The translations under genes were made by a program, and so were the position numbers. Positions 25,905-43,254 of a stretch of 64,000 bases of DNA are shown piece by piece. The notes beneath the pieces were generated by a model. The model worked only from the letters and a program-made list of their open reading frames with translations. It had not been told where the DNA came from and made no database searches. How positions within the stretch are numbered: position 1 is the first letter of the stretch; each line of letters starts with the position of its first letter. This stretch comes from Salegentibacter sp. 24 (lineage in GTDB: Bacteria > Bacteroidota > Bacteroidia > Flavobacteriales > Flavobacteriaceae): assembly GCF_004362395.1 (NCBI RefSeq), contig NZ_SNWE01000003.1, forward strand, positions 1 through 64,000. Reading direction: 5' to 3'.

Positions 25905-28901
25905 ATGAAAAATAATTACTCGCGCCTAAAATGGGTGGCGCTAATTATTATTGGAGGAATATTATTCTTCCTGTCAAAGTCTGCGACAGCAGCACCCACT
26001 AGCTTCCCTCTTCTGCAACAGCAAGAAGTTTCGGGAATAGTAAAAGATCAAAATGGTATTCCTATTCCTGGCGTGACCGTAAAGGTTAAAAATACAAATC
26101 TAGGTACTGTTACTAATTTAGATGGTGAATTCAACATCACTGCACCTGAGAATGGTATTTTAATCTTTACTTACATAGGATATAAAACTGCAGAAATTCC
26201 GATTGATAACAATGAAGAAATTAGCATTCAATTAGAAGAAGATATTTCTAGCTTGGGTGAAGTCAAAATCAATGCCGGATATTATAATACTACCGAAAGA
26301 GCACGAACAGGAAATATTTCCAGAGTAACCGCAGAGGAAATAGAATTTCAACCGGTGGTGAGCCCTATTGAAGCTCTTGCAGGTAGAATGGCTGGAGTCC
26401 AGATTATTCCCGGAGGTAATTTACCTGGTGGAGCTACGACCATTCGTGTAAGAGGAATTAATAGTTTAAGACAAGAAGGGAACCTTCCACTTTATATTAT
26501 AGATGGGGTCCCGGTGAATTCCGCCCCCATTCAAAGTAACAGCAATTTAGATATTAGTGGAATTGATCCTTTGAACAACATCAATGTTTCTAATATTGAA
26601 AGTATTGAGATTTTAAAGGATGCAGATGCAACCGCAATCTATGGTTCAAGAGGAGCTAATGGAGTAGTATTAATAACAACAAAGCAGGGAAAAATTGGAA
26701 AAACTGAATTTCAGGCACGCGTTTATTCCGGTGTTTCGGAAGTTCCCAATCGCGTGGACTTATTAAATACCCAGGAATATCTTCAAATTAGACGTGCGGC
26801 TTTAGAAAATGATGGCATTGAACCTACAGAAACAAATGCATACGATCTGACTATTTGGGATCAGGACCGCTATACCGATTGGCAAGAAATGTTTTTTGGT
26901 GGATCTGCTCCTGTTACCGATATTAATTTACACGCTTCGGGAGGGAATGAACGCACTACTTTCAGATTGAGTGGATCATTTTACAACCAAGGAACAGTTT
27001 ATTTAGGGGATTATGACTACGAGAAAGTTACAGCAGGAGCACATTTAAGTCACACAACTGAAAATAGAAAATTTCATCTCGACCTATCGGTAAATTATGG
27101 TGCAGATCAAAACAAACTTGCAGGTTATTTGAAATTAACCGGTCCTGCTTTTACTTTACCCCCAAATGCACCCCCTGTATTCAATGATGATGGCAGTCTA
27201 AATTGGGACTCCTGGAGTGAAGCTGGTATCAATAACCCTTTAACCGGTTTTTTTAATACAGGCGATATTGAGGGTCGTACTCTGAATTCAAATTTGCTTC
27301 TTTCTTATGAAGTACTAAATGGCTTAGAATTAAAGTCAAGTTTTGGATACACCACCTACCAGGGCGATGAGCTGATTAGAAGACCTAAAAGATCATTTAA
27401 TCCATCAAGCTCTGGAAGCTCAAATCACAGATCCACCCATTTAATAACTCAAAGAAAATCCTGGATAATTGAGCCTCAGCTAACCTATAATGCCGAGTTA
27501 GGGAAATTAGCTTTAAACGCTATAATCGGGGGGACATTTCAGCGAAGTGAAAATGCTAATTTAAGCCTACAGGGTGAAGGCTATGTCTCCGAATCCCTAA
27601 TAGGAAATTTAAGCGCGGCAGAGAGAATTATTTCAGGTGACAATTTAAGTACGGATTATAGATACAATGCTATTTTTGGTCGTTTAGGTTTTCAATGGGA
27701 TGATAAATACTATCTCAATTTTACTGGCAGAAGAGATGGTTCATCCCGTTTTGGCCCAGGAAAACGTTTAGCAAATTTTGGAGCAATTGGTGCAGCCTGG
27801 ATTTTTACTGAAGAAAAATTTATAAAAAATGCACTCCCGTTTATTTCGTTTGGAAAGTTCAGAGGTAGCTACGGAACTACAGGTAATGATCAAATTGGAG
27901 ATTATGGATATTTCGATGCTTATATAGCTACTATTGGACCTGGTGGATTGTACCCAAACCAGCTTTCAAACCCGGATTATTCATGGGAAATTAACAGGAA
28001 ACTGGAAGCAGCGGTCCAGCTTGGTTTTAATGAAGATAAAATAAATTTAGGAATCAGCTGGTACCGAAATCGTTCTTCCAATCAACTTGTAGGGTATACG
28101 CTCCCTGCGACCACAGGATTTAGTTCAGTTCAGGCTAATTTGCCTGCAACGGTAGAAAATACAGGATTTGAAATAGAATTTTCTAGTCTTAATATAAAAA
28201 CTAAAAATTTCCAATGGCAATCTTCTTTTAACCTTACGCTACCTGAAAACAAACTCGTTAGTTATCCGGGAATAGAAGAATCATCATATGCAAATACTTA
28301 TAGGGTGGGTGAACCCTTAAATATTGCGTTACAATACAGATACGAAGGTATCGATCCTGAAACTGGTTATTACCAGGTTGCGGATATTAATGGTGACGGA
28401 AGTTTTGATTATGATGACAGGATAATTCCCTGGGATCGCGGGCGTAAATTATTTGGAGGGATTAGCAATAGTTTTAAATATAAAAATTTTTCATTGCAGT
28501 TTTTGTGGCAGTTTGTTGAGCAAGAAGGCATATTAGGACTTTTTAATGGCGGTCTTATCCAAAATCAACGCAGAGATGTATTTCAATCTTTGCAAGACGA
28601 TAGCGATTTTCAACAAATATCGACTTCATTTGCAGCTTCACAAGCATACAATAATGTGTTAAGTTCTAATTTCCCGGTTGTGAACGCTTCCTTTCTAAGG
28701 TTAAAAACAATGAATATTAGCTATTCTCTTCCTAGCTCTTTAGTGGAAAATATTGGTTTGTCTTCTGGGAAATTTTTCATTAATGGACTAAACCTTTTAA
28801 CCCTGACACCATATGAAGGTATTGATCCTGAAATGCCTGGAATAGGGACCTCTTTTTCTGCATTAAGAACGGTTACCGGAGGAATTCAAGTAAATTTTTA
28901 A
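25905..28901 (+). CDS. SusC/RagA family TonB-linked outer membrane protein
   Basis: TonB-dependent outer-membrane importer of 998 residues that would form the channel of a SusCD complex. In order: a signal peptide with a hydrophobic core (WVALIIIGGILFFLS), a carboxypeptidase-regulatory-like domain at about 42-113 (VSGIVKDQNGIPIPGVTVKV), the plug at about 130-260 (PLYIIDGVPVNSAP, IESIEILKDADATAIYGSRG with ANGVVLITTK), and the barrel to the C-terminus. It is followed after 10 bp by susD and then by M16 peptidases, with no glycosidase near, so a peptide or protein substrate is more likely than a glycan. The 5' leader is very long and structured. Confidence 0.95.
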   Translation: MKNNYSRLKWVALIIIGGILFFLSKSATAAPTSFPLLQQQEVSGIVKDQNGIPIPGVTVKVKNTNLGTVTNLDGEFNITAPENGILIFTYIGYKTAEIPIDNNEEISIQLEEDISSLGEVKINAGYYNTTERARTGNISRVTAEEIEFQPVVSPIEALAGRMAGVQIIPGGNLPGGATTIRVRGINSLRQEGNLPLYIIDGVPVNSAPIQSNSNLDISGIDPLNNINVSNIESIEILKDADATAIYGSRGANGVVLITTKQGKIGKTEFQARVYSGVSEVPNRVDLLNTQEYLQIRRAALENDGIEPTETNAYDLTIWDQDRYTDWQEMFFGGSAPVTDINLHASGGNERTTFRLSGSFYNQGTVYLGDYDYEKVTAGAHLSHTTENRKFHLDLSVNYGADQNKLAGYLKLTGPAFTLPPNAPPVFNDDGSLNWDSWSEAGINNPLTGFFNTGDIEGRTLNSNLLLSYEVLNGLELKSSFGYTTYQGDELIRRPKRSFNPSSSGSSNHRSTHLITQRKSWIIEPQLTYNAELGKLALNAIIGGTFQRSENANLSLQGEGYVSESLIGNLSAAERIISGDNLSTDYRYNAIFGRLGFQWDDKYYLNFTGRRDGSSRFGPGKRLANFGAIGAAWIFTEEKFIKNALPFISFGKFRGSYGTTGNDQIGDYGYFDAYIATIGPGGLYPNQLSNPDYSWEINRKLEAAVQLGFNEDKINLGISWYRNRSSNQLVGYTLPATTGFSSVQANLPATVENTGFEIEFSSLNIKTKNFQWQSSFNLTLPENKLVSYPGIEESSYANTYRVGEPLNIALQYRYEGIDPETGYYQVADINGDGSFDYDDRIIPWDRGRKLFGGISNSFKYKNFSLQFLWQFVEQEGILGLFNGGLIQNQRRDVFQSLQDDSDFQQISTSFAASQAYNNVLSSNFPVVNASFLRLKTMNISYSLPSSLVENIGLSSGKFFINGLNLLTLTPYEGIDPEMPGIGTSFSALRTVTGGIQVNF

Positions 28902-28911
28902 AATAAAAATC

Positions 28912-30318
28912 ATGCGAAAAAATATATTTCTAAAATTATGCCTGATCCTGTCCATTCTATTGCAATGGTCATGTGAAGATTTTTTAGAGGTGGAAACACC
29001 AAATCATAAAATAGTGAGTGAGACTGTATTCAACAGTGATGAAACTGCCATTAGTGCAATGGATGGAATCTACAACCAATTATTCCGAGCATCATCGTTC
29101 GGTGGTGTCAGAGAAACTAGTGTGCATATACTAGCGGGTCTTTCATCTGACGAATTAATGGCTATCAGACCAACTAATTTGGAATTATTAGAATTCTATC
29201 AAAATGATGTTCAACCAGCTAATACAAGAAACCATTCCTTGTGGTCCAGTGCCTATAATGTCATTTATATGACTAACTCACTAATAGAAGGGATTGAAAC
29301 ATCCGGAAATATAGGTGAAGAGCTTGGCAATAACCTAAAAGGGGAAGCAAAATTTGTCAGGGCCTTTACTTATTTTAATCTGATTAATCTTTACGGGGAG
29401 GTACCCCTTGTGTTAACCACTGATTACCGTGAAAATGCCTTGGTCAGCAGAGTAAGTAAAGAAGAAATTTACGATCAGATTTTAGTAGATCTCTATGAAG
29501 CCTCAGAACTGCTAAGTGTTAAATATAGGAACGAGGACAGGACCAGGGTGAATAAGTTTGCTTCCTTGGCCTTGCTTGCCAGAGTTAATCTTTACCTGGA
29601 AAACTGGCCTGAGGCTGAGAGACTAAGTAGTGAGGTAATCGCACAAAGTAATCAATATGAAATCCTGGAGGATTTGAACCAGGTTTTTCTTGCCAACAGC
29701 AAGGAGGCCATCTGGCAAATTTCACCCATTGGAGGCAGTGGTGGGATTCTTTCCTTTACCACCGAAGGGTCCGTATTTATATTTAACCCAAACTTTCCTT
29801 CTCTAACAAAAGTGGCTCTTACCACAGATCTTGTCGAGTCCTTTGAAAACGGTGATAAACGAGTTGAAAACTGGATTGGCCAGCACGAACCTACAGGTTA
29901 TTCATATGCTTTCAAATATAAAGATCGAAACAGTCTATATAATATAACGGAATATTCTATGGTACTTCGACTAGCAGAACAGTATTTAATCAGGGCAGAA
30001 GCAAGAGCTATGCAAGGGGATCTATCGATGGCTCTGAAAGATTTAGATAAAATTAGACAAAGAGCAGGGCTATCAGATATTGAAGAGGTAAATCCAAATA
30101 TTGAATCTGAGGAATTATTAGATCTATTGATGGAAGCAAGAAGAAAGGAGCTATTTACTGAGTGGGGACATCGTTGGATGGATCTAAAACGGACCGGTCG
30201 GGCATTATCAGTTCTTAGTACAAAGTCTTCAGGCTTTGAAAATACAGACATACTTTACCCTATTCCAGCAGAAGAAAGAATGAAAAATCCAAATTTAAAT
30301 CAAAACCCAGGTTATTAG
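28912..30318 (+). CDS. RagB/SusD family nutrient-uptake outer membrane lipoprotein
   Basis: Surface lipoprotein that forms the lid of the SusCD transporter, 468 residues. The signal ends in the lipobox LLQWSC followed by EDFLEVETP, a classic SusD start. The helical TPR-like body is recognisable by FNSDETAISAMDGIYNQLFR, RAFTYFNLINLYGEVPLV and ARVNLYLENWPEAERLSSEV. The C-terminal part has YLIRAEARAMQGDLSMALKD, RRKELFTEWGHRWMDLKRTG and LYPIPAEERMKNPNLNQNPGY. It is shorter than many SusD proteins. A decayed copy of its last 77 codons lies at 33357. It belongs to one operon with susC and the first M16 gene (3-bp gap). Confidence 0.94.
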   Translation: MRKNIFLKLCLILSILLQWSCEDFLEVETPNHKIVSETVFNSDETAISAMDGIYNQLFRASSFGGVRETSVHILAGLSSDELMAIRPTNLELLEFYQNDVQPANTRNHSLWSSAYNVIYMTNSLIEGIETSGNIGEELGNNLKGEAKFVRAFTYFNLINLYGEVPLVLTTDYRENALVSRVSKEEIYDQILVDLYEASELLSVKYRNEDRTRVNKFASLALLARVNLYLENWPEAERLSSEVIAQSNQYEILEDLNQVFLANSKEAIWQISPIGGSGGILSFTTEGSVFIFNPNFPSLTKVALTTDLVESFENGDKRVENWIGQHEPTGYSYAFKYKDRNSLYNITEYSMVLRLAEQYLIRAEARAMQGDLSMALKDLDKIRQRAGLSDIEEVNPNIESEELLDLLMEARRKELFTEWGHRWMDLKRTGRALSVLSTKSSGFENTDILYPIPAEERMKNPNLNQNPGY

Positions 30319-30321
30319 GTT

Positions 30322-33201
30322 ATGAGAACACGAAACATTCAATCGATTATTTCTTTAATTTTATTATTACAAATAAATTTAACGAATGGTCAAAACTTAG
30401 CTGAATCGGATATACTTCCATTAGACCCTAGTATTCGGTATGGGGAACTCGATAATGGCTTTAAGTATTATATTAAGCCAACTTATGACAAAGATCCCAA
30501 GCTTCACCTCTCTTTAATAGTAAATGCCGGGACAAATCATGAAGATCAGGACCAGGTAGAGCTGAGTCATTTTCTCGAACATATGGCATTTAAATCTAGT
30601 AAAAATATTCCCGGGGGAATCCATCAAAAACTTAAAGAAAGTACCGGTTTAGGGTTAAATATGTTCGATGTTAACGCCCATCCAGGTCCTAAATCAACCA
30701 CATACATATTCAAGTCACCGGTAAATAATATGCCTGCCCTTGATCTCGCATTACTCTGGTTTGAGGATATTGCAAAAGGAAAATTAAAACTTACGGAACA
30801 GGAAATAGATCAGGAAAAGGGTCCATTTACGCAGGAATATATAACAAGGGGCGGTGATAATTTCAAGAAAATAATTCAGCAAAATAAAGTTAAATCCAAT
30901 TTAATCCCAGGAAATAAGGACCAAACCAATTTGCTAAAGGATATTGAAAATATGAATTACAAAGCCTTAAGACGATACTATAAAGACTGGTACCGTCCGG
31001 ACCTAATGGCGATAAGCATAGTTGGGAATATTAGAAATACGGATAGCCTAGAAAGAGCTATACAGGAGCGTTTTTCAGATATTCCAGTTAAGAAAAAACC
31101 TAGGTTGGTTACTGATTACGATTCCCTGTATTATCATCAAGACAATAAATTCGCGAAAGTATTGACCCAAGACACATTGGATTCTGAAATTGAATTTCAA
31201 CTCTTCTATAAAGACAGGGAAACTTTTTCCAAACTCCAGACTATGGATGGGGCTTACCAAATATTGAAATGGAATCTCCTAACAAATATCCTCAATCAAA
31301 GATTAAAAGAAAAGTCCTATACTTATAATTCTTTCTATACCGCAAGGTCCAATTATACTTATAAACTTTCCAATATTCCTATATCCCTGCAAATACTTAT
31401 AACTAGTGAAGGTAACAAATATAAAGATGCACTCGCGGAAACCGCGGCTGTGTTAAAACAACTTTATAAATATGGAGTTGGTAAAGCTGAATTTAACCAA
31501 GCGGTAGAGAAGCAACTTGATGATATTCGGGTAGATTATTCGGAAAATTCTCGATATTGGTCATACCCAATAAAAGCTCATTTTATTTCTGGCGAGGCAT
31601 TGCCCGCCGATAAGCTTAAATTACTAAAAAACTGGCTTTCAAATTACAACAGGCTTGATTTTAATTCCTTTATCCGAAAAATATCGTTTGACAGACCTGA
31701 AAGTATCGGGGTCCTGATTCCTGCTAAGTTTAAGGATCTCAATATAACAGAAAATCTAACTAGAGATGTTCTCAAAGGTTCCTTTACGGACAAAACCAAA
31801 CCCTATACTCCGCCGAAAACCCCTGAAAGGTTAATGAGTGAGAAGGAAATAAAAAAATTGCAACCATCCGAAAATATCGATTTAGGATTTGGAGAGTCCG
31901 GAGCTAAGGAACTAATTCTTGAAAATGGAATTAAAGTAATGCTTTATTCTCATGAACCCGAAGGTGTTAATAAAAATGATATTTTTATTCATGGATTTAC
32001 ACCAATTGGTGCGATTAATTTTCCAAAAGGAGATTATTTTTCTGCCGTTAACTCAGCAGAAATTATACTTAATAGTGGCGTCGGTGAACTAAATAAGTTT
32101 GAACTGCAACGCTTTCTCTCCTCTACAAGTCTTAATTGGCATCTTATTGATTTGTATATAAATAATCTTGAATCCGGAATACAAATGCACAGTAGTTCGA
32201 GGGATCTGGAAATCATGTTACAAGTGATTCGTCTTCATATGCAAAAAGCAAATGTTTCAGAAATGGCTTTCAAAGACTGGAAAGCGAATGCTATCAAAAT
32301 GAAATCCAATACGTTATTTGATATTAAAAGCCAGGATTTAAAAATGCTTATTAATGATTATTTTGAAGATTATTCCGAGGTAACTTACGGCACAAGACGA
32401 TTTAAAGGCATTGAAAAAACGAAGCTGGAAAAAGCTGAAAAAATTTATAATCGGATTTTTAATAATCCCGAGCGTTTTACCTTTGTAATCAATGGAAATT
32501 TCTCCATAGATTCCATAATCCCTTTAGTTAATAAATATTTAGGTACGCTACCAGTATCAGATGCAGAATTTAATCAGGACGTTTCAGAAAAGCAATATGA
32601 TTTAGCCCCTAAAGGTCCTGTTTATAAGGAATTTGCATTTCCTGGAAATTATACTAAGAAGAATAATCTATATATGTCATATATTATTAAAAAAACCAAG
32701 GATCCTTCAGATTGGAGAGAAAAAATTAAAGTTAAAGCTCTGGGCGCTGTCACAAATACCAAAATGTGGGGTTTACGTTTTGACAAGGGCTATCCTCTTT
32801 ATGCCCCAGGAGCAGGTGCTAATTACAATATGGTTAAAAATCGATATGAAATCCAGACCTATTTTAATACCGAACCCGCTGAAATTGAAAATCTCAGAGA
32901 GGAATTTAAAAAAATAATGATTCACTTGAAAACTGAAAAGGTACCTAAAAGCATTTTAGAGCAAAGCCTTGAAAGAATGCTAAATATATATAATCCAGAA
33001 ACCGGGGGCAATACCCACAGGTGGGTGCAGAAAAAGCTCTATAATCATTATCGGTTTAATTTACCATGGGTTGAAAATTCAGAAATTCACCAGTTCATAA
33101 AAGAACTTACACCATCCGATATTCAGGAAACTGCAAAAAAATATTTTCAAGACGAAAACTTATTTGAATTCGTAATCAAAGAGAAAAAAGAAGACTTATA
33201 A
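30322..33201 (+). CDS. M16 family zinc metallopeptidase, copy 1 (pitrilysin-like)
   Basis: Secreted two-domain peptidase of 959 residues. A signal peptide (IQSIISLILLLQINLTNGQ) is followed by the first M16 domain with the inverted zinc motif HFLEH (LSHFLEHMAFKSS, about residue 88) and the downstream glutamate in EIDQEKGPFTQEY. A second M16 repeat begins near residue 530 (GAKELILENGIKVMLYSHE) and ends near 950. The length and double-domain layout fit periplasmic M16B pitrilysin-type enzymes, which cut short peptides in a closed chamber. It is coupled to susD (3 bp apart). It differs from copy 2 most strongly just after the zinc motif (residues about 93-128), which may alter substrate choice. 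Confidence 0.93.
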   Translation: MRTRNIQSIISLILLLQINLTNGQNLAESDILPLDPSIRYGELDNGFKYYIKPTYDKDPKLHLSLIVNAGTNHEDQDQVELSHFLEHMAFKSSKNIPGGIHQKLKESTGLGLNMFDVNAHPGPKSTTYIFKSPVNNMPALDLALLWFEDIAKGKLKLTEQEIDQEKGPFTQEYITRGGDNFKKIIQQNKVKSNLIPGNKDQTNLLKDIENMNYKALRRYYKDWYRPDLMAISIVGNIRNTDSLERAIQERFSDIPVKKKPRLVTDYDSLYYHQDNKFAKVLTQDTLDSEIEFQLFYKDRETFSKLQTMDGAYQILKWNLLTNILNQRLKEKSYTYNSFYTARSNYTYKLSNIPISLQILITSEGNKYKDALAETAAVLKQLYKYGVGKAEFNQAVEKQLDDIRVDYSENSRYWSYPIKAHFISGEALPADKLKLLKNWLSNYNRLDFNSFIRKISFDRPESIGVLIPAKFKDLNITENLTRDVLKGSFTDKTKPYTPPKTPERLMSEKEIKKLQPSENIDLGFGESGAKELILENGIKVMLYSHEPEGVNKNDIFIHGFTPIGAINFPKGDYFSAVNSAEIILNSGVGELNKFELQRFLSSTSLNWHLIDLYINNLESGIQMHSSSRDLEIMLQVIRLHMQKANVSEMAFKDWKANAIKMKSNTLFDIKSQDLKMLINDYFEDYSEVTYGTRRFKGIEKTKLEKAEKIYNRIFNNPERFTFVINGNFSIDSIIPLVNKYLGTLPVSDAEFNQDVSEKQYDLAPKGPVYKEFAFPGNYTKKNNLYMSYIIKKTKDPSDWREKIKVKALGAVTNTKMWGLRFDKGYPLYAPGAGANYNMVKNRYEIQTYFNTEPAEIENLREEFKKIMIHLKTEKVPKSILEQSLERMLNIYNPETGGNTHRWVQKKLYNHYRFNLPWVENSEIHQFIKELTPSDIQETAKKYFQDENLFEFVIKEKKEDL

Positions 33202-33207
33202 AAAAAA

Positions 33208-33234
33208 GAACAAGCCGGATTTCTCGGCTTGTTC
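33208..33234 (+). terminator. Terminator after M16 copy 1
   Basis: GAACAAGCCG and CGGCTTGTTC form a perfect 10-bp stem with a 7-base loop. The T run is weak on this strand; seven A residues precede the stem, so it may also act leftwards. The same element recurs at 36475. Confidence 0.7.
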
Positions 33235-33256
33235 TCAATATGCATTTTTTTAAATT

Positions 33257-33347
33257 TTAAAATGCATTTAACACTATTCCAGCACCTGTTTTCCTGTTCA
33301 TTAGAGCAGGATCATCATATACCGGGTAAGGTGTCCCTCCCGGAGTG
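33257..33347 (-). pseudogene. DUF6520 gene tail left at the duplication junction
   Basis: Read on the minus strand, this encodes only the last 30 or so residues of a DUF6520 protein (TPGGTPYPVYDDPALMNRK, ending NAF and stop). It matches the end of the intact gene at 36524-36614 with a few changes. The homology stops at GGAGTG, where the susD fragment begins after a short filler. Confidence 0.88.
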
Positions 33348-33356
33348 CCAGCTGCT

Positions 33357-33587
33357 GAAGAGATTAACACAAGTATTGAACCTGAGGAATTATTAGACCC
33401 GCTAATCCAAAAGAAAAGAACTTTTTACGAAATAGGAAATCCCTGGATGGATCTAAAAAGAAAAGGTCGGGCAATATCAGTACTTAGTACAAATTCTTAA
33501 GGCTCTAAAAATACAGACAAACTTTTTCCTATTCCAGCAGAAGTAAGAATCAAAAATCCAAATTTAAATCAAACCCCAGGTTATTAG
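33357..33587 (+). pseudogene. Decayed susD 3' fragment at the duplication junction
   Basis: This encodes the last 77 codons of the SusD at 28912-30318: PEELLDPLIQ, GNPWMDLKRKGRAISVLSTN, then an in-frame TAA, then LFPIPAEVRIKNPNLNQTPGY. It has no start and one internal stop, so it is not functional, but it still supplies the sequence directly before M16 copy 2. Confidence 0.92.
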
Positions 33588-33590
33588 GTT

Positions 33591-36470
33591 ATGAAAACTC
33601 GAAACATTCAAACATTTATTTCTTTAATTTTATTATTACATTTTAATTTAACGAATGGTCAAAACTTAGCTGAATCGGATATACTTCCATTAGACCCAAG
33701 TATTCAGTATGGGGAACTCGATAATGGTTTTAAGTATTATATTAAACCTACTTATGACAAAGATCCCAAGCTTCACCTCTCTTTAATAGTAAATGCCGGG
33801 ACAAATCATGAAGATCAGGACCAGGTAGAACTGAGTCATTTTCTAGAACATATGGCATTCAAATCGAGTCAAAACTTTCCCCACGGTCTCGATCAAATAA
33901 TCAAAGAAAGCACCAGTTTAGGGTTAAATATATTCGATGTAAACGCCCAAACTACTCCTAAATCAACTATATATTTATTCAAATCACCGGTAAATAATAA
34001 GCCCGCGCTTGATCTTGCATTACTTTGGTTTGAGGATATTGCAAAAGGAAAATTAAAACTTACTGATAAGGAAATAGATCAGGAAAAGGGTGCTTTTACA
34101 CAGGAATATATAACCGGAGGCGGAGATAATTTCGAGAAAAGACTTCAGCAAAATAAACTTATTTCCAAGTTAATCCCAGGAGTTAAGGTTCGAACCAATT
34201 TGCTAAAGGATATTGAAAATATGAATTACAAAGCCTTAAGACGATACTATAAAGACTGGTACCGTCCGGACCTAATGGCGATAAGCATAGTTGGGAATAT
34301 TAGAAATACGGATAGCCTAGAAAGAGCTATACAGGAGCGTTTTTCAGATATTCCAGTTAAGAAAAAACCTAGGTTGGTTACTGATTACGATTCCCTGTAT
34401 TTTAATCAAGAATATAGATTCGCTAAAGTATTAACTGAAGATTCCTTGGATTCAGAAATTGAATTTCAACTCTTCTATAAAGACAGGGAAACTTTTTCCA
34501 AACTCCCAACTATGGATGGGGCTTACCAAATATTGAAATGGAATCTCCTAACTGATATCCTCAATCAAAGATTAAAAGAAAAGTCCTATACTTATAATTC
34601 TTTCTATACCGCAAGGTCAAATTATACTTATAAAAATTCCCTAGTGCCTCTATCACTCCGAATAATTATAAAAAGTGAAGGAAATAAATATAAAAAAGCA
34701 CTCGCGGAAACCGCTGCTGTGTTAAAACAACTTTATAAATATGGGGTTGGTAAAACTGAATTTGACCAGGCGATAGAGAGACAACTCGATAATATTCGGA
34801 TAGATCATCCGGAAAATACTCGATATTGGTCATCCCCAATCAGAGCTCATCTTATTTCGGGCGAAGCATTGCCCGCCGATAAGCTAAAATTACTAAAAAC
34901 CTGGCTTTCAAATTACAACAGGCCTGATTTTAATTCCTTTATCCGAAAAATATCGTTTGACAGACCTGAAAGTATCGGGGTCCTGATTCCTGCTAAGTTT
35001 AAGGATCTCAATATAACAGAAAATCTAACTAGAGATGTTCTCAAAGGTTCCTTTTCGGACAAAACCAAACCCTATACTCTGCCGAAAATCCCTGAAAGGT
35101 TAATGAGTGAGAAGGAAATAAAAAAATTGCAACCATCCGAATATATCGATTTAGGATTTGGAGTGTCCGGTGCAAAGGAGTTAATTCTAGAAAATGGAAT
35201 TAAAATAATGTTATATTCTCATCAACCCGAAGGCGTTAATGAAAATGATATTTTTATTCATGGATTTACACCAATTGGTGCGATGAATTTTCCAAAAACA
35301 GATTATTTTTCTGCCGTTAACTCAGCAGAAATTATACTTAATAGTGGCGTCGGTGAACTAAATAAGTTTGAACTGCAGCGCTTTCTTTCACCAACAAGCC
35401 TTAATTGGCATCTTCTTGATTTATATATAAATAACCTTGAATCCGGCATAGAAATGCACAGTAGTCTGAGAGATCTGGAAATCATGTTACAAGTGATTCG
35501 TCTTCATATGCAAAAAGCAAATGCTTCTAAAATGGCTTTTACGGACTGGAAAGCGAATGCTATCAAAATGAAATCCAATACGTTATTTGATATTAAAAGC
35601 CAGGATTTGAAGATATTTATTAAAGATTATTTTGAGGATCATTCTGGTGTAACTTACGGCACAAGACGATTTGAAGGCATTGAAAAAACTAAACTAGATA
35701 GAGCTGAAAAAATCTATAATCAAATTTTTAATAATTCCGAACGTTTTACCTTTATAATCAATGGAAATTTCTCCATAGACTCCATTATCCCTTTAGTTAA
35801 TAAATATTTAGGTACGCTACCAGTATCAGATGCAGAATTTAATCAGGACGTTTCAGAAGAGAATTATGATTTAGCCCCTAAAGGTCCTGTTTATAAAGAG
35901 TTTGCATTTCCTGGAAATTATACTAAGAAGAATAATCTATATATGTCATATATTATTAAAAAAACCACGGATTCTTTGGACTGGAGAGAAAGAATTAAAG
36001 TTAAAGCCCTGGGCGCTGTCACAAATACCAAAATGTGGGGTTTACGTTTTGACAAGGGATATCCACTTTACTCCCCGGGAGCAGGTGCTAAATACAATAT
36101 GGTTAAAAATCGATATGAAATCCATACCTATTTTAATACCGAACCCGCTGAAATTGAAAATCTCAGAAAGGAATTTAAAAAAATAATGATTCACTTGAAA
36201 ACTGAAAAGATACCTAAAAGCATTTTAGAGCAAAGCCTTGAAAGAATGCTAAATATATATAATCCAGAAACCGGGGGCAATACCCACAGGTGGGTGCAGA
36301 AAAAACTCTATAATCATTACCGGTTTAATTTACCCTGGGTTGAAAATTTAGAAATTCACCAGTTCATAAAAGAACTTACACCATCCGATATTCAGGAAAC
36401 TGCAAAAAAATATTTTCAAGACGAAAACTTATTTGAATTCGTAATCAAAGAGAAAAAAGAAGACTTATAA
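33591..36470 (+). CDS. M16 family zinc metallopeptidase, copy 2 (pitrilysin-like)
   Basis: Paralog of the first M16 enzyme with the same length (959 residues), signal peptide, zinc motif (LSHFLEHMAFKSS) and glutamate region (EIDQEKGAFTQEY). The two proteins are nearly alike over most of their length. Differences cluster after the zinc site (QNFPHGLDQIIKESTS against KNIPGGIHQKLKESTG), around residues 270-285 and 355-370, and in the third quarter. All catalytic residues are kept, so both copies are probably active. There is no obvious promoter between the decayed susD tail and this gene. It could be read from the operon upstream if the terminator at 33208 leaks. Confidence 0.93.
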   Translation: MKTRNIQTFISLILLLHFNLTNGQNLAESDILPLDPSIQYGELDNGFKYYIKPTYDKDPKLHLSLIVNAGTNHEDQDQVELSHFLEHMAFKSSQNFPHGLDQIIKESTSLGLNIFDVNAQTTPKSTIYLFKSPVNNKPALDLALLWFEDIAKGKLKLTDKEIDQEKGAFTQEYITGGGDNFEKRLQQNKLISKLIPGVKVRTNLLKDIENMNYKALRRYYKDWYRPDLMAISIVGNIRNTDSLERAIQERFSDIPVKKKPRLVTDYDSLYFNQEYRFAKVLTEDSLDSEIEFQLFYKDRETFSKLPTMDGAYQILKWNLLTDILNQRLKEKSYTYNSFYTARSNYTYKNSLVPLSLRIIIKSEGNKYKKALAETAAVLKQLYKYGVGKTEFDQAIERQLDNIRIDHPENTRYWSSPIRAHLISGEALPADKLKLLKTWLSNYNRPDFNSFIRKISFDRPESIGVLIPAKFKDLNITENLTRDVLKGSFSDKTKPYTLPKIPERLMSEKEIKKLQPSEYIDLGFGVSGAKELILENGIKIMLYSHQPEGVNENDIFIHGFTPIGAMNFPKTDYFSAVNSAEIILNSGVGELNKFELQRFLSPTSLNWHLLDLYINNLESGIEMHSSLRDLEIMLQVIRLHMQKANASKMAFTDWKANAIKMKSNTLFDIKSQDLKIFIKDYFEDHSGVTYGTRRFEGIEKTKLDRAEKIYNQIFNNSERFTFIINGNFSIDSIIPLVNKYLGTLPVSDAEFNQDVSEENYDLAPKGPVYKEFAFPGNYTKKNNLYMSYIIKKTTDSLDWRERIKVKALGAVTNTKMWGLRFDKGYPLYSPGAGAKYNMVKNRYEIHTYFNTEPAEIENLRKEFKKIMIHLKTEKIPKSILEQSLERMLNIYNPETGGNTHRWVQKKLYNHYRFNLPWVENLEIHQFIKELTPSDIQETAKKYFQDENLFEFVIKEKKEDL

Positions 36471-36474
36471 AAAA

Positions 36475-36501
36475 GAACAAGCCGGATTTCTCGGCTTGTT
36501 C
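36475..36501. terminator. Terminator between converging M16 copy 2 and DUF6520 genes
   Basis: This is the same 10-bp stem as at 33208. A second AT-rich hairpin (AATGCATTTT with AAAATGCATT, about 36506-36535) follows and would serve the minus-strand DUF6520 transcript. Confidence 0.7.
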
Positions 36502-36523
36502 TCAATATGCATTTTTTTAAATT

Positions 36524-36793
36524 TTAAAATGCATTTTTCACTTTTCCAACACCTATTTTCCTAGTCATAAGAGCAGGATCATCATATACCGGGTAAGGTG
36601 TCCCTCCCGGAGTGATACGTGCTTCGCATGGGGTATTGCCTATTTCGCAATTAAGCTCTTCAACAATTTCCACCCCGCTTTCGGTCACTATATAATCCAA
36701 TTCAGGATCACTGGACTGGTTTATAGTGGCGAAAGCCATTCCTATGGCACAAATAAATGCCATCATCGGTAATAAAAAATTTTTACTTTTCAT
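36524..36793 (-). CDS. DUF6520 family small secreted protein
   Basis: An 89-residue secreted protein of a Bacteroidota family with unknown function. Residues 1-22 are a signal peptide (FLLPMMAFICAIGMAFA). The mature part is acidic (SSDPELDYIVTESGVEIVEE), then has two cysteines (ELNCEIGNTPCEARI), a Gly/Pro/Tyr-rich stretch (TPGGTPYPVYDDPALM) and a basic C-terminus. The two cysteines could form a disulfide. It follows the MauE-like gene in one operon (50-bp gap) and converges with the M16 peptidase. The family often has MauE, SusCD or peptidase neighbours as far as I recall. It could be a precursor peptide matured by the M16 enzymes; that is inference. Confidence 0.85.
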   Translation of the reverse strand: MKSKNFLLPMMAFICAIGMAFATINQSSDPELDYIVTESGVEIVEELNCEIGNTPCEARITPGGTPYPVYDDPALMTRKIGVGKVKNAF

Positions 36794-36843: not shown

Positions 36844-37329
36844 TCAGCTCACATTCCTGTCATTATCGCGATAAAATCTTTTTTCTTTTTTTAGAATATA
36901 GATACTGGAGCGTGCCAGTACGAGATTCCCTATATTAAAATATAAGTATTGCTTCCAGGAGAATTGAGCAATGAAGCCGTTACAGCTGCATGGCATTCCA
37001 TTAGCATTGATCAAACTCCATATACTATAAGTGGCATAAATCATAAAAATTAAAACCGCAAAATATAGTCCTATACGACGGGTCCTCCTTAGCCCAATTA
37101 ATAGTGCAGTGAGCAATTCAACGATCGGAATTACTATAGCAAATACTTCGGCCATTCTTTTCTCAAACAAAAAAGGTGTGTTTAACCAAAAGTTTACAAA
37201 GGACTGATCCGCCAGTTTTGTGATTCCTGAGAAAACCAGAAGCCAGATAAAATAGAACAGCATAATGGAAAGGTATATGCTCCTTCTTTTGTCCTTTCTG
37301 GCTGAAATATTTAAATCCCCGTAATACAT
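36844..37329 (-). CDS. MauE/DoxX-like redox-associated membrane protein
   Basis: Inner-membrane protein of 161 residues with four hydrophobic segments (SIMLFYFIWLLVFSGITKLA, AIVIPIVELLTALLIGL, IGLYFAVLIFMIYATYSI and a last segment near 130-145). SGITKLADQSFVNFWLNTPF is the typical MauE/DoxX loop, and GMPCSCNGF supplies a Cys-Ser-Cys redox motif facing the periplasm. MauE proteins are linked with disulfide formation in partner proteins. The two-cysteine DUF6520 protein downstream is the obvious candidate partner. Upstream it has two copies of the AraC-type direct repeat. Confidence 0.82.
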   Translation of the reverse strand: MYYGDLNISARKDKRRSIYLSIMLFYFIWLLVFSGITKLADQSFVNFWLNTPFLFEKRMAEVFAIVIPIVELLTALLIGLRRTRRIGLYFAVLIFMIYATYSIWSLINANGMPCSCNGFIAQFSWKQYLYFNIGNLVLARSSIYILKKEKRFYRDNDRNVS

Positions 37330-37371
37330 GCTACCTTGTTTTATTCTTTAAGGTAAAGTTCGGGAAAAGTC

Positions 37372-37404
37372 TTTTACTATGAAGTTGGGTATTTGACTAT
37401 GAGG
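37372..37404 (-). promoter_or_regulatory. Direct-repeat regulator site upstream of mauE-like operon
   Basis: TTTTACTATGAAG (37372-37384) and TTTGACTATGAGG (37392-37404) are 20 bp apart, 43-75 bp upstream of the MauE-like start. A TACCTTAA box lies between them and the gene on the minus strand. The same motif recurs at 38705-38738 and 38788. Confidence 0.65.
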
Positions 37405-37409
37405 AAGTA

Positions 37410-38276
37410 TTATCGACACTTGGAAGGAGTAATTCCATAAAATTTCTTGAATGTTCGCGAAAAATGCGCATCACTGATAAACCCACATCGCTCTGCAATT
37501 ATTATCTGGGTTGTATCAGAGGCCTTCAATAAATCTTTGGCCTTTTCCATTCGCTTTTCCAGATGAAACTGTGCCATAGTAGATCCATATAATAATGGAA
37601 AACCGCGTTTTAAAAGACTGGGATTAGCATTAACTTTTTTTGCTAAAAACTCAATAGATGGAAATGGTTTATCGAGGTTGTTCATCAGATAATGATATAC
37701 CCTGTCAATTATTTTCTTATTTTTCCAAATATCGAATTTGTTTGCGACTCTCCTATTAAGCTTTTTATTTCTGGATATATGCAATTCCTTTATCGGAATA
37801 TTTCGTATTGCAGACATTATATAGATCTTATTCTCTCGTGACAAACAGCTTATTCTTGAATCAAGAGAAACTATTAGTTCATCCTTAAATTTATACTTAA
37901 GATCGAGGCTGATTTCTGATTTATCAGAATTGAAAAGCTTTTTTATTTTATTAACGGAAGATCTAGTTAGAAAGCTATTTAAATTATTGAGGCTCTCTGA
38001 TTTTATATAATTCCCCGAAATACTATTCCAATTGGTAACATTTAAATCCTCGTCAAATAAAAAAAATAGAAGCTCAAAATTTATTGGTGCACTATAGGCT
38101 GACAAATTCTTAAAAATATTTTTTAAATGTCCAGCAAGCATATTCAAAAGTGCTGCTATAAGTAAATTTTTATCCTTAAAATTTGTTGTATTAATTCGCT
38201 TATCATAATCACCGCATGCCAGTTCGGTTATCAGATTCGCTATTTGATCCAATTGTCTATCTTTTCTTGTATTCAT
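37410..38276 (-). CDS. AraC-family transcriptional regulator with PAS-like N-terminal part
   Basis: DNA-binding regulator of 288 residues. The C-terminal 95 residues are a double-HTH AraC domain (FPSIEFLAKKVNANPSLLKR, AQFHLEKRMEKAKDLLKAS, IIIAERCGFISDAHFSRTFK). The N-terminal part has a HAMP-like start (LDQIANLITELACGDYDKRI) and a PAS-like fold (ELLFFLFDEDLNVTNWNSIS), so it may sense a ligand or partner protein. It is read one base after the stop of the small STAS-like gene, so the two are translationally linked. AraC proteins bind direct repeats about 21 bp apart, exactly the pattern seen three times around this gene. Confidence 0.88.
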   Translation of the reverse strand: MNTRKDRQLDQIANLITELACGDYDKRINTTNFKDKNLLIAALLNMLAGHLKNIFKNLSAYSAPINFELLFFLFDEDLNVTNWNSISGNYIKSESLNNLNSFLTRSSVNKIKKLFNSDKSEISLDLKYKFKDELIVSLDSRISCLSRENKIYIMSAIRNIPIKELHISRNKKLNRRVANKFDIWKNKKIIDRVYHYLMNNLDKPFPSIEFLAKKVNANPSLLKRGFPLLYGSTMAQFHLEKRMEKAKDLLKASDTTQIIIAERCGFISDAHFSRTFKKFYGITPSKCR

Positions 38277-38277
38277 A

Positions 38278-38664
38278 TCAATTACTTTTTGGATATTTTC
38301 TCAGATATGCTTTAGCTTTAAGGGGATCCTCAAAAATTGCTGTGGGTACGGTTGGTTCGCTCAAGTGAAGATAAAATCCCGCAGTAAATAAGGAGTGCGG
38401 GTAATTTACGAGTAAAGCTACGGCAGTAGTCAATTCTGATCCCTGTTTTGCCAGATAATCCATAGCTGATATATCCGCCTGGACAACTAATCTCAGGTCA
38501 CATAAAACAGGATAAGCCTTATCGTTTTGAATAGATAACCTGAGTCTGAGGAGTTTTTTTGCAATAGATAAGGTAAGAATATCTATTTTGAAATAATCAA
38601 AATACAAAATATCTTGTTCTATATACGTTTCAGCATATTCATTATTTGTTTTCTTGATAATCAT
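38278..38664 (-). CDS. Small STAS/DUF7793-like protein
   Basis: A cytoplasmic protein of 128 residues with an alternating beta-alpha pattern (DILYFDYFKIDILTLSIAKK, KAYPVLCDLRLVVQADISAM, TAVALLVNYPHSLFTAGFYL) like the STAS-like small proteins of flavobacteria (DUF7793 and similar). It lies directly before the AraC gene, and its stop and the next start are one base apart. It is likely a modulator of that regulator, by analogy with STAS anti-anti-sigma proteins. The function is not established. Confidence 0.65.
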   Translation of the reverse strand: MIIKKTNNEYAETYIEQDILYFDYFKIDILTLSIAKKLLRLRLSIQNDKAYPVLCDLRLVVQADISAMDYLAKQGSELTTAVALLVNYPHSLFTAGFYLHLSEPTVPTAIFEDPLKAKAYLRKYPKSN

Positions 38665-38704
38665 TTTTAGTCCCCGTTAAACCACTGTAAGTTAAGTAAA
38701 TATA

Positions 38705-38738
38705 TTTGACTCTCTGAACTAAATATTTTACTCTCAAG
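38705..38738 (-). promoter_or_regulatory. Direct-repeat regulator site upstream of the STAS-AraC operon
   Basis: TTTGACTCTCTGA (38705-38717) and TTTTACTCTCAAG (38726-38738) are 21 bp apart and 41 bp or more upstream of the STAS-like start. A TATATTTA box on the minus strand abuts the site. Autoregulation by the AraC protein is likely. Confidence 0.6.
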
Positions 38739-38787
38739 ACCATTTTAAGTAATTTTCTTCCAATCAAATTGCCTTTAAGGGTCAATA

Positions 38788-38800
38788 TTTGACTATGAAG
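38788..38800 (+). promoter_or_regulatory. Regulator half-site upstream of the oxoamine synthase gene
   Basis: TTTGACTATGAAG, 88 bp before the start at 38888. A degenerate partner (ATTGCCTTTAAG) sits about 20 bp upstream. Confidence 0.5.
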
Positions 38801-38887
38801 AACATTTGAAGTATTTAGCTAATAAAAAATTGCTTTTGCGTGAAAAACTTTAATTAGTTTCAGGTTATAGTTTTTAAATATGGGGCA

Positions 38888-41311
38888 ATGGCAAAGGTTA
38901 AACACAATAATTTTTTGGATACGGTCGATGAAGTAATCACTAATGCAACCAGTGCAGGCGTAATTCATCTTCATGCCGAGGGAAGTGAATTAAACGGAAG
39001 ACGAATCACTATTAACGGCAAATCTTCCTATCATTTCGGAACAACCGGATATCTTGGTCTTGAACAGGATGAAAGGTTAAAAATGGCAGCAATTAATGCC
39101 ATCCATAAATACGGAACCCAGTTTCCGCTATCTAAAACATATATTTCCCACCCCCTGTATGCTCCACTGGAAGAAAAACTTTTCAAAATGTATAAACATC
39201 CGATCCTTATAACAAAAAACAGTACCCTTGGACACCTGGCGGTAATTCCAACCGCGGTCCGGGACAAAGACGCGGTAATATTAGATCATCAGGTGCATTG
39301 GAGCGTTCAAAGTGCTACTGAGGTATTAAAATCAAGAGGTATCCCGGTTAGAATGATCAGGCACAGTAATATGGAGATGTTGGAACATTATATCAAATCC
39401 TTAAGAAATAAAGTGGATAAAATATGGTATATGGCTGATGGGGTATATTCCATGTATGGAGACTATGCTCCTTTAAAAGAATTAATGGAACTGTCAAAAA
39501 AATATCCCCAGCTACAACTCTACATTGATGATGTACACGGGATGAGCTGGAAAGGAGAAAATGGATCGGGTTATGTAATGTCAGAGCTTAAGGAACTTCC
39601 CCAGAATATTCTTCTATTCGGAACTTTGAGTAAAACCTTTGGAGCCAGCGGTGCGGTTTTGGTTTGCCCTGATGAAAAGCTCCACAAAAAAATTAAAAAT
39701 TTCGGTGGACCATTAACTTTCTCTGCACAGCTGGAACCAGCTTCGGTAGCTGCAGCAATTGCTTCCGCTGATATCCATTTATCCCCTGAAATCTACCAGT
39801 TGCAATCAGATTTAGGAAATAAAATAAAATACTTTAATGACTTACTAAAGGCCTCTGATCTGCCCCTGGTGCATAGAAATAATTCCCCCGTTTTTTATAT
39901 AGGCACAGGTCTACCTCTTACCGGATATAATTTTGTGAGCAAAATGATGAATGCTGGTTTTTTTGTTAATCTGGGTTTGTTCCCGGCCGTTCCGGTAAAA
40001 AATACCGGGGTAAGAATTACCATTTCCCGGCATAATGAATTACAGGATATAAAAGCCTTGATAGATGCGATGAAGTATCATTTCCCTTCGGCACTGGAGG
40101 AAACACTTACAGACCTACCAAGGATTTATCTAGCTTTCGGAATGCAGGAATCCGGTTTACCTGAAGAGAAATATGCAGAAAAAGTTAATAAAAACCTTCG
40201 CCTAAAATATACCAAATCTATTAAAGAATTAGATAAAAAATCCTGGGACCAGTGTTTTCTAGGGAAAGGCACATTCGATTGGGAGGCACTTCACTTTTTG
40301 GAAAACGTATTTAGCAATAACAAGCTGAAAGAACATAACTGGAATTTCCATTACATCCTAATAATGGATGAAAGGAATTCCATTGTTATGGCTGCGCATT
40401 TGAGCAGTGCTTTATTAAAGAATGATATGCTCTCTAATGAAACTACCTCCAAAGCTATTGAAGAAATAAGAAAGCAGGATACTTATTACATGACAGATAT
40501 CGTGTTGTCCCTTGGATCGGTTTTTTCCGAAGGGGAGCATTTATACATTAATCTGGGCCATCCTCAGTTAGAAAATGCGATGCGTTTATTTTTAGATCAA
40601 CTCGAAAAAATAAAACAGCAGGAAAAAGCTAAACTTATTATTTTACGGGATTTTAATAAAAACAACAGTTTAAATAGCTTTTTCCATGAGCAAGGTTTCA
40701 TTGCAATAGATATGCCTGATTCTTGTGAAATTACAAAGCTTAAATGGAGTAATGAAGAGGATTATATAGCCACCCTTAGCAAACGGTCCAGAAAGCATTT
40801 CAGGAGAGATGTTAAGGCTTTTGAAAATTATTTTAAAACCAGGATAGTCTCCACTCCCACGACCGAAGAGATTGATAAATATTACGCATTATTTGTACAG
40901 GTTTGGAATCATAATTTAGGGATAAACACCTTTAAATTTCCAAGGAAACTTTTTTCTGAAATGGCCAAGAGCCCGAAATGGGACTTTCTGGTATTATATC
41001 TTAAAGCAGATCGTAACAACGTATCGGATAAAATCGTAGGCGTGATGTTCTGTACTGGATCCGGGAATACTTTTATCCCCGCGCTTGTAGGCATGGATTA
41101 TGAATATAATGAGAAGTTTAATATTTATCGCCAGCTTTTATACCAGACCATAAAAACGGCGGGAATTTTAAAATACGAAAAAATCAATTTCGGCCTTAGC
41201 GCCAATTTCGAAAAAAAGAAACTAGGAGCCACTTTAACTCCTAAAGTAGCCTATATTCAGGCAGACGACAACTTTAGCCTAGAAGCTTTAGAATGGTTAA
41301 GAAAAGACTAG
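38888..41311 (+). CDS. Alpha-oxoamine synthase-like PLP enzyme fused to a GNAT/BioF2-like domain
   Basis: Two-domain enzyme of 807 residues. Residues 45-400 form a fold-type I PLP domain of the alpha-oxoamine synthase family (relatives: BioF, KBL, SPT, CqsA), which condenses an amino acid with an acyl-CoA. YHFGTTGYLGLEQDERL, LYIDDVHGMSWKGENGSGY and the PLP lysine Lys249 in FGTLSKTFGASGAVL are visible. Residues 560-800 resemble a BioF2/FemAB-like N-acyltransferase (KRSRKHFRRDVKAFENYF, NFGLSANFEKKKLGATLTP). The product could be a long-chain amino ketone that is then N-acylated, that is, a sphingoid, sulfonolipid or signal-type lipid. A regulator site like that of the AraC operon lies upstream. 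Confidence 0.85.
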   Translation: MAKVKHNNFLDTVDEVITNATSAGVIHLHAEGSELNGRRITINGKSSYHFGTTGYLGLEQDERLKMAAINAIHKYGTQFPLSKTYISHPLYAPLEEKLFKMYKHPILITKNSTLGHLAVIPTAVRDKDAVILDHQVHWSVQSATEVLKSRGIPVRMIRHSNMEMLEHYIKSLRNKVDKIWYMADGVYSMYGDYAPLKELMELSKKYPQLQLYIDDVHGMSWKGENGSGYVMSELKELPQNILLFGTLSKTFGASGAVLVCPDEKLHKKIKNFGGPLTFSAQLEPASVAAAIASADIHLSPEIYQLQSDLGNKIKYFNDLLKASDLPLVHRNNSPVFYIGTGLPLTGYNFVSKMMNAGFFVNLGLFPAVPVKNTGVRITISRHNELQDIKALIDAMKYHFPSALEETLTDLPRIYLAFGMQESGLPEEKYAEKVNKNLRLKYTKSIKELDKKSWDQCFLGKGTFDWEALHFLENVFSNNKLKEHNWNFHYILIMDERNSIVMAAHLSSALLKNDMLSNETTSKAIEEIRKQDTYYMTDIVLSLGSVFSEGEHLYINLGHPQLENAMRLFLDQLEKIKQQEKAKLIILRDFNKNNSLNSFFHEQGFIAIDMPDSCEITKLKWSNEEDYIATLSKRSRKHFRRDVKAFENYFKTRIVSTPTTEEIDKYYALFVQVWNHNLGINTFKFPRKLFSEMAKSPKWDFLVLYLKADRNNVSDKIVGVMFCTGSGNTFIPALVGMDYEYNEKFNIYRQLLYQTIKTAGILKYEKINFGLSANFEKKKLGATLTPKVAYIQADDNFSLEALEWLRKD

Positions 41312-43251: not shown

Positions 43252-43254
43252 GTG

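Follow-up and report, generated by a model that had tools for sequence, protein, structure and literature searches.

A DUF6520 Secreted-Protein Cassette on RteC-Type Conjugative Elements of Bacteroidota and a Candidate AraC-Type Operator That May Link It to an Alpha-Oxoamine Synthase Fusion

Introduction

In the conjugative transposon CTnDOT the genes tetQ-rteA-rteB precede rteC, RteB activates rteC, and RteC controls the excision and transfer genes, as far as the account of this regulation in PMC1976400 goes. RteC-bearing elements are also described from the Flavobacteriia, such as ICERan of Riemerella anatipestifer, whose cargo includes a putative TonB-dependent receptor (PMC6491836), and the Bacillus element ICEBs1 encodes a secreted peptide, PhrI, and a regulator of its own activation (PMC8032392). 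Here we analyse a cassette of Salegentibacter sp. 24 (contig NZ_SNWE01000003.1, positions 1 to 64,000; this whole stretch of 64,000 nucleotides is called the window) in which a SusC-SusD importer (SusCD), secreted hydrolases and the small secreted protein DUF6520 stand beside an AraC-type regulator, DUF7793, a fusion of an alpha-oxoamine synthase (AOS) with a GNAT acyltransferase (AOS-GNAT) and rteC. To our knowledge, what sets the timing of excision is largely open for those Bacteroidota conjugative elements that tetracycline does not induce.

The cassette is like CTnDOT, CTnERL and RteC-type transposons in having rteC by regulators and cargo, an excisionase-like helix-turn-helix (HTH) gene, and Bacteroidota tra genes downstream. 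It differs from CTnDOT in what stands before rteC, which is an AraC-DUF7793-AOS-GNAT set or a kinase/response-regulator set, together with SusCD, a hydrolase and DUF6520; the kinase/response-regulator sets recall RteA and RteB before rteC. ICERan was compared by description only, and in the portion of PMC6491836 that sets out its cargo SusD, DUF6520 and AOS-GNAT are not named. The likeness to RapI-PhrI of ICEBs1, as that element is outlined in its description, lies only in how it works, with a secreted peptide and a regulator of the element's own activation on one element: the cassette has no Rap, Phr, ImmR or ImmA family, comes from another phylum and encodes a cysteine-paired protein of about 65 residues. 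The peptide-importing SusCD loci RagAB and BT2261-2264 share with it SusCD with peptide handling and the lack of a glycosidase but, unlike them, the cassette is element-borne, has a convergent DUF6520-MauE unit and carries an AOS-GNAT gene joined to it by a candidate operator. The alpha-hydroxyketone systems CqsA and LqsA likewise have an alpha-oxoamine synthase beside regulators (here DUF7793 in 80/80 and AraC in 76/80 loci), whereas the synthase of the cassette is closer to PRK07505, BioF and serine palmitoyltransferase (SPT) and has a fused acyltransferase. Its closest solved structure is the alpha-oxoamine synthase Alb29 (8xha and 8xhd; 153 bits for 8xha, fold TMt 0.84-0.85), which is 26% identical and has no GNAT half. 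No comparable cassette turned up in the open-access literature searched, and the term DUF6520 occurs nowhere in its 5.39 million papers.

The sequences best support a reading in which a single AraC-type regulator would govern the promoter region of AOS-GNAT-rteC as well as the operon of the secreted peptide, the partner that appears to co-evolve being a peptide-type SusCD importer. What the sequences give is a conserved synteny, a location on conjugative elements, and a candidate operator both at the divergent promoter and before MauE-DUF6520. The cassette is a first shared context for DUF6520, DUF7793 and the AOS-GNAT fusion. It offers identified genes together with an operator and a regulon, both predicted, by which rteC is tied to a lipid-type enzyme and a secreted peptide, and it thereby makes the question of excision timing directly testable.

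Gene Order and Conservation of the Cassette

The window reads rightward through susC, susD, M16a and M16b, leftward through DUF6520, MauE, the AraC-type regulator and DUF7793, and rightward again through AOS-GNAT, rteC, HTH_17 and a DnaD-like gene, with an XRE-type gene leftward before susC. The features, with profile scores in bits, are as follows.

24714..25088, minus strand: XRE-type HTH protein upstream of susC (PF13560, 33.5 bits)
25905..28901, plus strand: susC, TonB-dependent importer (TIGR04056, SusC/RagA, 712 bits; PF07715, PF13715)
28912..30318, plus strand: susD, surface lipoprotein partner (PF14322, PF07980)
30322..33201, plus strand: M16 peptidase copy a, 959 aa (PF00675, PF05193; zinc motif HFLEH at residue 83)
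33202..33590: tandem-duplication remnants, the DUF6520 3' end (minus strand) and then the susD 3' end (plus strand), from local alignment and the susD profile
33591..36470, plus strand: M16 peptidase copy b, 959 aa (PF00675, PF05193; HFLEH retained)
36473..36503: terminator-like stem in the gap where M16b and DUF6520 converge, copied by the duplication
36524..36793, minus strand: DUF6520 small secreted protein (PF20130, 69 bits)
36844..37329, minus strand: MauE-family membrane protein with a CSC motif (PF07291, 71 bits)
37372..37405: candidate AraC operator preceding MauE-DUF6520, two TTT(T/G)ACTATGA units 20 bp apart
37410..38276, minus strand: AraC-type regulator with a HAMP/PAS-like N-terminal half (PF12833, 62.6 bits)
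38278..38664, minus strand: DUF7793, divergent neighbour of AOS-GNAT (PF25056, 117 bits)
38702..38816: candidate AraC operator at the divergent promoter, ATATTTGACTCTC-type direct repeats at 38702, 38723 (21 bp) and 38785
38888..41311, plus strand: AOS-GNAT, fusion of an alpha-oxoamine synthase with a GNAT/FemAB-like acyltransferase (PF00155, Aminotran_1_2; PF13480, Acetyltransf_6)
41361..42281, plus strand: rteC, excision/transfer regulator family (PF09357, 202 bits), 50 bp after AOS-GNAT
42970..43251, plus strand: HTH_17 excisionase-like protein (PF12728, excisionase PHROGs)
43252..43929, plus strand: DnaD-like gene following HTH_17, named by eye (cluster 10, in 21/61 loci)

The initial annotation, which ended the locus at 41311, had the genes and coordinates right, and the families score above their curated cut-offs. 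It also saw no glycosidase, and neither a glycosidase nor another carbohydrate-active enzyme, as a polysaccharide utilization locus would have, was found among the cassette proteins scanned. The AraC member of its AraC/STAS pair stands, but the STAS member is DUF7793 and has a STAS resemblance only, and the block does not stop at 41311 but continues into rteC, HTH_17 and the DnaD-like gene. The PAS assignment of the AraC-type regulator rests on a PAS_9 match below cut-off in the relative L190, and the HAMP likeness was judged by eye. The window DUF6520 has two cysteines in its mature part and a third in the signal-peptide region.

DUF6520 was surveyed with the PF20130 profile (E up to 0.001) in 149 genomes of the window's family and 395 of its phylum, and matched in 25 and 32 of them, 22 and 25 above the curated cut-off; the Salegentibacter genome itself has four copies. 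The window, 40 regions of the family survey and 18 of the phylum survey make up a set of 59 loci, from which 6 of the 48 family-survey places and 19 of the 44 phylum-survey rows were left out, 7 more of these rows being already covered by the family set. One member, L124, is a lysine-rich false match that was retained in the 59 (and in the 113 proteins used below for cysteines) and excluded from trees and correlations. Within 10 kb of DUF6520, susC is found in 56/59 loci, against a chance expectation of about 13% (208 susC matches in about 37 Mb of ten genomes, a lower bound as 35 candidates per genome were scored). The gene susD is found in 57 loci, convergent in all 57 and missing only in L124 and in the short contig L071, and MauE or a MauE-propeller protein in 53. 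On the control side AraC occurs in 35 loci, DUF7793 in 27, AOS-GNAT in 23 (one of them, in L040, a fragment) and rteC in 31. The co-occurrence that the initial annotation asked to be checked thus holds for SusCD and for MauE or propeller, and fails for M16, which is found in 17/59.

Seen from the other end of the cassette, the 149 family genomes hold AOS-GNAT at 20 places in 17 genomes, and from each of the 20 a DUF6520 place is no more than about 7 kb away. When AOS-GNAT, DUF6520 and DUF7793 were compared by eye, genome by genome, these proved to be exactly the 17 genomes with DUF7793 matches above 100 bits (25 copies), a line set after the gap in scores was seen; weaker matches (up to 53 bits) occur in 18 further family genomes. 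Across the phylum AOS-GNAT was found in 9/395 genomes, among them one where the match is partial and one where a stop interrupts the copy. The latter, L080 in genome G203, lies about 3 kb from a stop-free DUF6520 match. A second set, the best 80 of 275 AOS-GNAT loci (L146 to L225, here called named loci), overlaps partly in organisms with the first; in it DUF7793 is adjacent and divergent in 80, AraC present in 76, DUF6520 in 64, susC and susD in 60 each and rteC in 57. Sus genes, DUF6520, rteC, DUF7793 and AraC are all present in 52/80.

The Candidate AraC Operator

Direct repeats stand in the divergent promoters between DUF7793 and AOS-GNAT. The repeat threshold was reached by 32% of 96 distinct divergent regions versus 4% of shuffles, and 26 of the 31 strong repeats lie exactly 21 bp apart. 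A distance of about 21 bp is the two-turn spacing of AraC half-sites, and these candidate repeats have the spacing expected for tandem direct half-sites of the AraC family. When a profile was trained on nothing but the divergent promoters, it fitted 86 of the 101 tested and gave 88 further matches in 2.08 Mb, versus 1 in one mononucleotide shuffle of the loci. Of these outside matches 46 precede a MauE or MauE-propeller gene, at an interquartile distance of 38-50 bp from its start codon. Another 4 precede DUF6520 itself, 9 other genes and 1 a response regulator, while 7 are intragenic and 21 have no annotated start nearby. None lies before susC, rteC or HTH_17, the susC stretch being judgeable in 46 loci. 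Where a locus has both MauE or propeller and a divergent site, a second site before MauE or propeller was found in 45 cases out of 62. Because related loci were each counted singly, these counts are not independent events.

The window's variant lies off the family profile (score -5.2) with the layout unchanged: units start at 38702, 38723 and 38785 and again at 37372 and 37392, and the best match between the two sites is 15/16 bases. Spacers between AraC and MauE share 14/16 bases with their own divergent promoter in 34/76 loci versus 21/304 shuffles. The same comparison gave 7/46 versus 19/184 shuffles upstream of susC and 6/63 versus 42/252 shuffles between rteC and HTH_17, and for the susC upstream stretch the own-locus mean was 14.0 versus 14.02 for other-locus pairs. 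A shared operator at either of these two places was rejected on these figures. On this evidence the secreted peptide, and probably AOS-GNAT with rteC, would form one regulon.

Three to six operator copies were seen in intergenic stretches near AOS-GNAT in L159, L166, L178 (2568-5127), L179 and L180. The small open reading frames in these stretches are unconvincing, except for a DUF6520 gene in L166, and the stretches may hold RNA genes or missed peptides. A family of proteins of 206-248 aa, alike by eye, lies directly behind the operator in L166 (3031-3651), L163 (537-1283) and L178 (5186-5806); two members scanned gave no Pfam match.

Conjugative-Element Context

The gap between AOS-GNAT and rteC is below 100 bp in 52/57 named loci, and in 100 genomes searched for both genes and compared by eye rteC stands directly behind 10 of the 12 AOS-GNAT places. 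In relatives rteC is followed by HTH_17, the DnaD-like gene, which has no match in Pfam or PHROG, and a DnaC-like ATPase; of the ATPase no trace was found in the window, where other genes intervene. This module also occurs beside other cargo and integrases. A further 14 rteC loci were taken irrespective of the cassette. Thirteen of them showed a gene upstream of rteC, which in 12 shares its strand; these genes belong to varied families, so the slot takes cargo.

The gene traG lies within 10 kb in 28/80 named loci, and L190 was confirmed to carry members of the TraG P-loop and TraM families. On the window's own contig (C3) traG, traI, traJ, traK and traM are found at 76165-81580, about 32 kb beyond the cassette and on the same strand; from contig and strand, we infer that they and the cassette belong to one element. 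A DUF5712 protein follows these tra genes, and another DUF5712 gene follows the copy of the cassette on contig C14 of the same genome; we take this family to be linked to mobilization. Two integrase queries found none either in the window or in the 54 kb that follow it, and integrases lie near the relatives L117, L199, L200 and L205. Judged by gene content, the cassette rides conjugative elements of the CTnDOT/RteC type, probably integrative ones. Carriage of AOS-GNAT by plasmids or phages was rejected, as no plasmid or phage record covered 80% of the query.

The AOS-GNAT Enzyme and Its Regulators

By profile, predicted structure and active-site lysine the first half of AOS-GNAT is an alpha-oxoamine synthase. 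K249, D214 and H217 are invariant across 8 aligned rows, the lysine-motif pattern was matched by 93/102 copies, and AOS structures rank top in both sequence and fold searches, the latter made with a predicted model of mean pLDDT 78. The AOS domain scores 258 bits with PRK07505, 158 with BioF, 140 with SPT and 68 with CqsA (PRK07179). Membership of the CqsA subfamily was rejected, the PRK07179 cut-off being 428 bits and the CqsA chains giving 42 bits. The GNAT half had no credible solved relative among PDB sequences.

The four named loci without AraC have kinase/receiver-type matches instead; L168, the only one scanned with Pfam, encodes a hybrid kinase, CheR and a PAS kinase. In L181 and L183 a response regulator stands beside AraC and AOS-GNAT, and AOS-GNAT together with a kinase or response regulator was found in 0/59 DUF6520 loci. 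Sets of sensor kinase, response regulator and LytTR genes were noted in place of AraC, DUF7793 and AOS-GNAT in L042, L048, L050, L059, L061, L063 and L066.

DUF6520, Its Cysteines and Its Partners

Cysteines were tallied in 113 of 121 DUF6520 rows (the 121 distinct among 129, less those within 3.5 kb of a stretch end), with MauE and propeller partners separated by a rule on protein length. The mature part has two or four cysteines in 108/113. Forms with at least four have a propeller partner in 52/54 cases, and those with two or three in 2/59, but on the SusD tree this link amounts to 3 independent pairs (mean 1.9 the same way, none opposite, sign test p 0.5), and cysteine number was therefore rejected as proof of MauE or propeller action. 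All 106 MauE-type proteins have a CxC motif. The propeller partner is membrane-anchored, and its predicted model (pLDDT 88.5) matched propellers in Foldseek, including a DUF4221 protein. MauE is absent within 4.5 kb in 13 M16-type loci, where mature DUF6520 keeps two or three cysteines, so an adjacent MauE is not strictly needed.

Pairwise distances were correlated in 58 of 61 loci after near-identical rows were thinned, the M16 and S9 subsets being thinned likewise. Two groups covary, SusC/SusD/DUF6520 (r 0.62-0.83) and AraC/DUF7793/AOS-GNAT (0.78-0.85), with 0.22-0.36 across them. DUF6520 itself correlates with SusC at 0.62, SusD at 0.63 and MauE at 0.28; in partial correlation it retains 0.28 with SusD and 0.20 with SusC, and the values for MauE, AraC, DUF7793 and AOS-GNAT are near zero. 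Within the M16 or S9 subsets the ranking is unstable, with errors too large to rank (AraC reaches 0.43 in one M16 subset), and the partial correlation of DUF6520 with M16 or S9 is 0.05 to 0.27. The mature protein is very divergent (mean distance 0.72-0.75 in the M16 and S9 groups), comparably to the M16 and S9 proteins of the same loci. Since DUF6520 co-evolves with the importer and its operon shares the candidate operator with the control module, these comparisons indicate that it bridges the two modules. A comparison with NVEALA gave matches in 2/198 genomes, none above cut-off.

The M16 Duplication and the Variable Hydrolase Slot

The M16 pair arose by tandem duplication of a unit of about 3.27 kb holding the susD end, M16 and the DUF6520 end (30074-33356 aligned with 33349-36623), so susD, M16 and DUF6520 were adjacent before it; susD profile matches remain between the copies at 33330-33497 and 33501-33584. 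The copies are 92.5% identical in nucleotides and 89% in amino acids, with dN/dS 0.26-0.28, which excludes an assembly artefact, as they differ at 7.5% of sites. HxxEH is present in 44/44 M16 proteins above 800 aa, as HFLEH in both window copies. Two M16 genes occur in the window alone among the annotated loci of the 59-locus set, and the nearest loci by AOS-GNAT (84%), L146 and L147 of Salegentibacter, have one each.

In the 59 loci the slot next to susD holds M16 in 17, S9 in 16, a met-zincin in 6, a redoxin in 6 and none of these classes in 14. Among these 14, a redoxin precedes susC in L120, L126, L129 and L130, an amidohydrolase is present in L066, and several of the stretches are truncated. 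M16 was accordingly rejected as a defining part of the cassette, and a dedicated M16 cutter of DUF6520 is unlikely.

Possible Functions of the Cassette

We tentatively favour, at somewhat less than even confidence, an element-borne control circuit in which a peptide and a lipid-type product report on the population, the SusCD/hydrolase unit handles the peptide and rteC is the output. Its surface module would be SusC-SusD with an interchangeable secreted hydrolase and the convergent DUF6520 with MauE, sometimes with a membrane-anchored beta-propeller; its control module would be the AraC-type regulator with DUF7793, divergent from AOS-GNAT running into rteC. The AOS-GNAT product, an alpha-aminoketone that is perhaps N-acylated, would tune AraC/DUF7793, which would switch on the disulfide-type secreted DUF6520 peptide together with rteC, and DUF6520 would be handled by the SusCD/hydrolase unit of the same or neighbouring cells. 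Such a sensing loop would control excision: the element would read its population through peptide and lipid and couple excision to that reading, as CTnDOT couples it to tetracycline and ICEBs1 to PhrI. The proximity of these genes, apparently controlled together and usually next to the importer and its exchangeable hydrolase, suggests a possible role in sensing or marking the hosts of the element. A rather unlikely variant is that AOS-GNAT makes a diffusible lipid-type signal read by HAMP/PAS-AraC-DUF7793, inducing DUF6520 and RteC, and that the SusCD-hydrolase unit recognises and removes the peptide, each type of element thereby discriminating carrier from non-carrier hosts.

Several observations weigh against the control circuit. 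The sensing of DUF6520 or of the AOS-GNAT product, and the induction of rteC by either, are steps that we infer indirectly. The importer seems to lie outside the regulon, because no operator was found before susC, and the divergent operator may serve DUF7793-AraC alone. In the 100 genomes 37/47 rteC rows lie away from AOS-GNAT and 10/47 adjoin it. In 12/80 named loci, a few of them truncated at contig ends, AOS-GNAT and DUF7793 occur without Sus genes, DUF6520 and rteC, and the core function of the two therefore does not depend on these elements. Locus L118 has AraC and DUF7793, yet its genome (G481) has no AOS-GNAT match, and among the 59 loci other regulators replace the control module, a kinase or response regulator in 9 and FecR in 8. 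By score, moreover, the AOS domain stands much closer to enzymes of BioF and SPT type than to the synthase of CAI-1.

It is possible, if doubtful, that the cassette is instead nutritional cargo, SusCD with a swappable hydrolase being a peptide-scavenging unit, DUF6520 and MauE periplasmic accessories, the element only a vehicle and AOS-GNAT, as part of the same reading, the maker of a membrane or sulfono/sphingolipid-like lipid. On this account rteC adjoins the cassette because the slot upstream of rteC is a cargo slot, as the varied genes upstream of rteC at 13 of the 14 loci suggest; the exchange of M16, S9 and met-zincin is what nutrient enzymes would show, and DUF6520 co-varies with SusC and SusD. 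It fits less well that the operator links MauE-DUF6520 to the AOS-GNAT promoter and that none was found ahead of the importer, where a nutrient operon would call for the opposite arrangement. Nor does it fit well that rteC follows AOS-GNAT in 10/12 places of an unselected genome set, and that 14/59 loci have none of the listed hydrolase classes beside susD. We give little credence to a role in competition, with the element spreading DUF6520 as an antagonistic peptide that is secreted and disulfide-bonded, and MauE/propeller and SusCD/hydrolase protecting or feeding the producer. The small and very divergent mature part, usually one per cassette and on mobile elements, would suit it, but no exporter was seen among the cassette genes and the divergence of DUF6520 resembles that of M16 and S9. 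Nor do six cassette proteins match any PADLOC defence model, toxin families not having been searched as such; a known defence system was rejected on that ground.

The least probable of these readings is the one first proposed for the locus, that MauE oxidises DUF6520, the two M16 enzymes cut it and SusCD serves to import or sense the cleavage product. The strong conservation of DUF6520-SusCD-MauE and the cysteines in twos or fours, with the propeller beside the forms with at least four, speak for it, but M16 is confined to 17/59 loci and doubled in the window alone, MauE is missing from 13 M16-type loci that retain the cysteines, and the cysteine/propeller link comes down to three pairs. As a whole that interpretation is partly supported; its signalling idea may hold and gains support, because an AraC-type operator appears to join MauE-DUF6520 with the AOS-GNAT-rteC promoter on a conjugative element.

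Other Features of the Window and Its Genome

Small HTH genes like the XRE-type gene lie upstream of susC in many relatives, as judged by protein clusters 12/22. A second SusCD pair with lipoprotein-like genes runs from 62268 to the end of the window at 64000 and on to C3 71427, between the cassette and the conjugation genes. Elsewhere in the genome, L111 on contig C38 has AraC, DUF7793, rteC, HTH_17, DnaD-like and ATPase genes, with no SusCD, DUF6520 or AOS-GNAT in the stretch fetched. On contig C4, L135 is a second RteC-type element, with a tyrosine integrase and a set of BREX-like genes, so judged by eye, of which one matches DUF6079.

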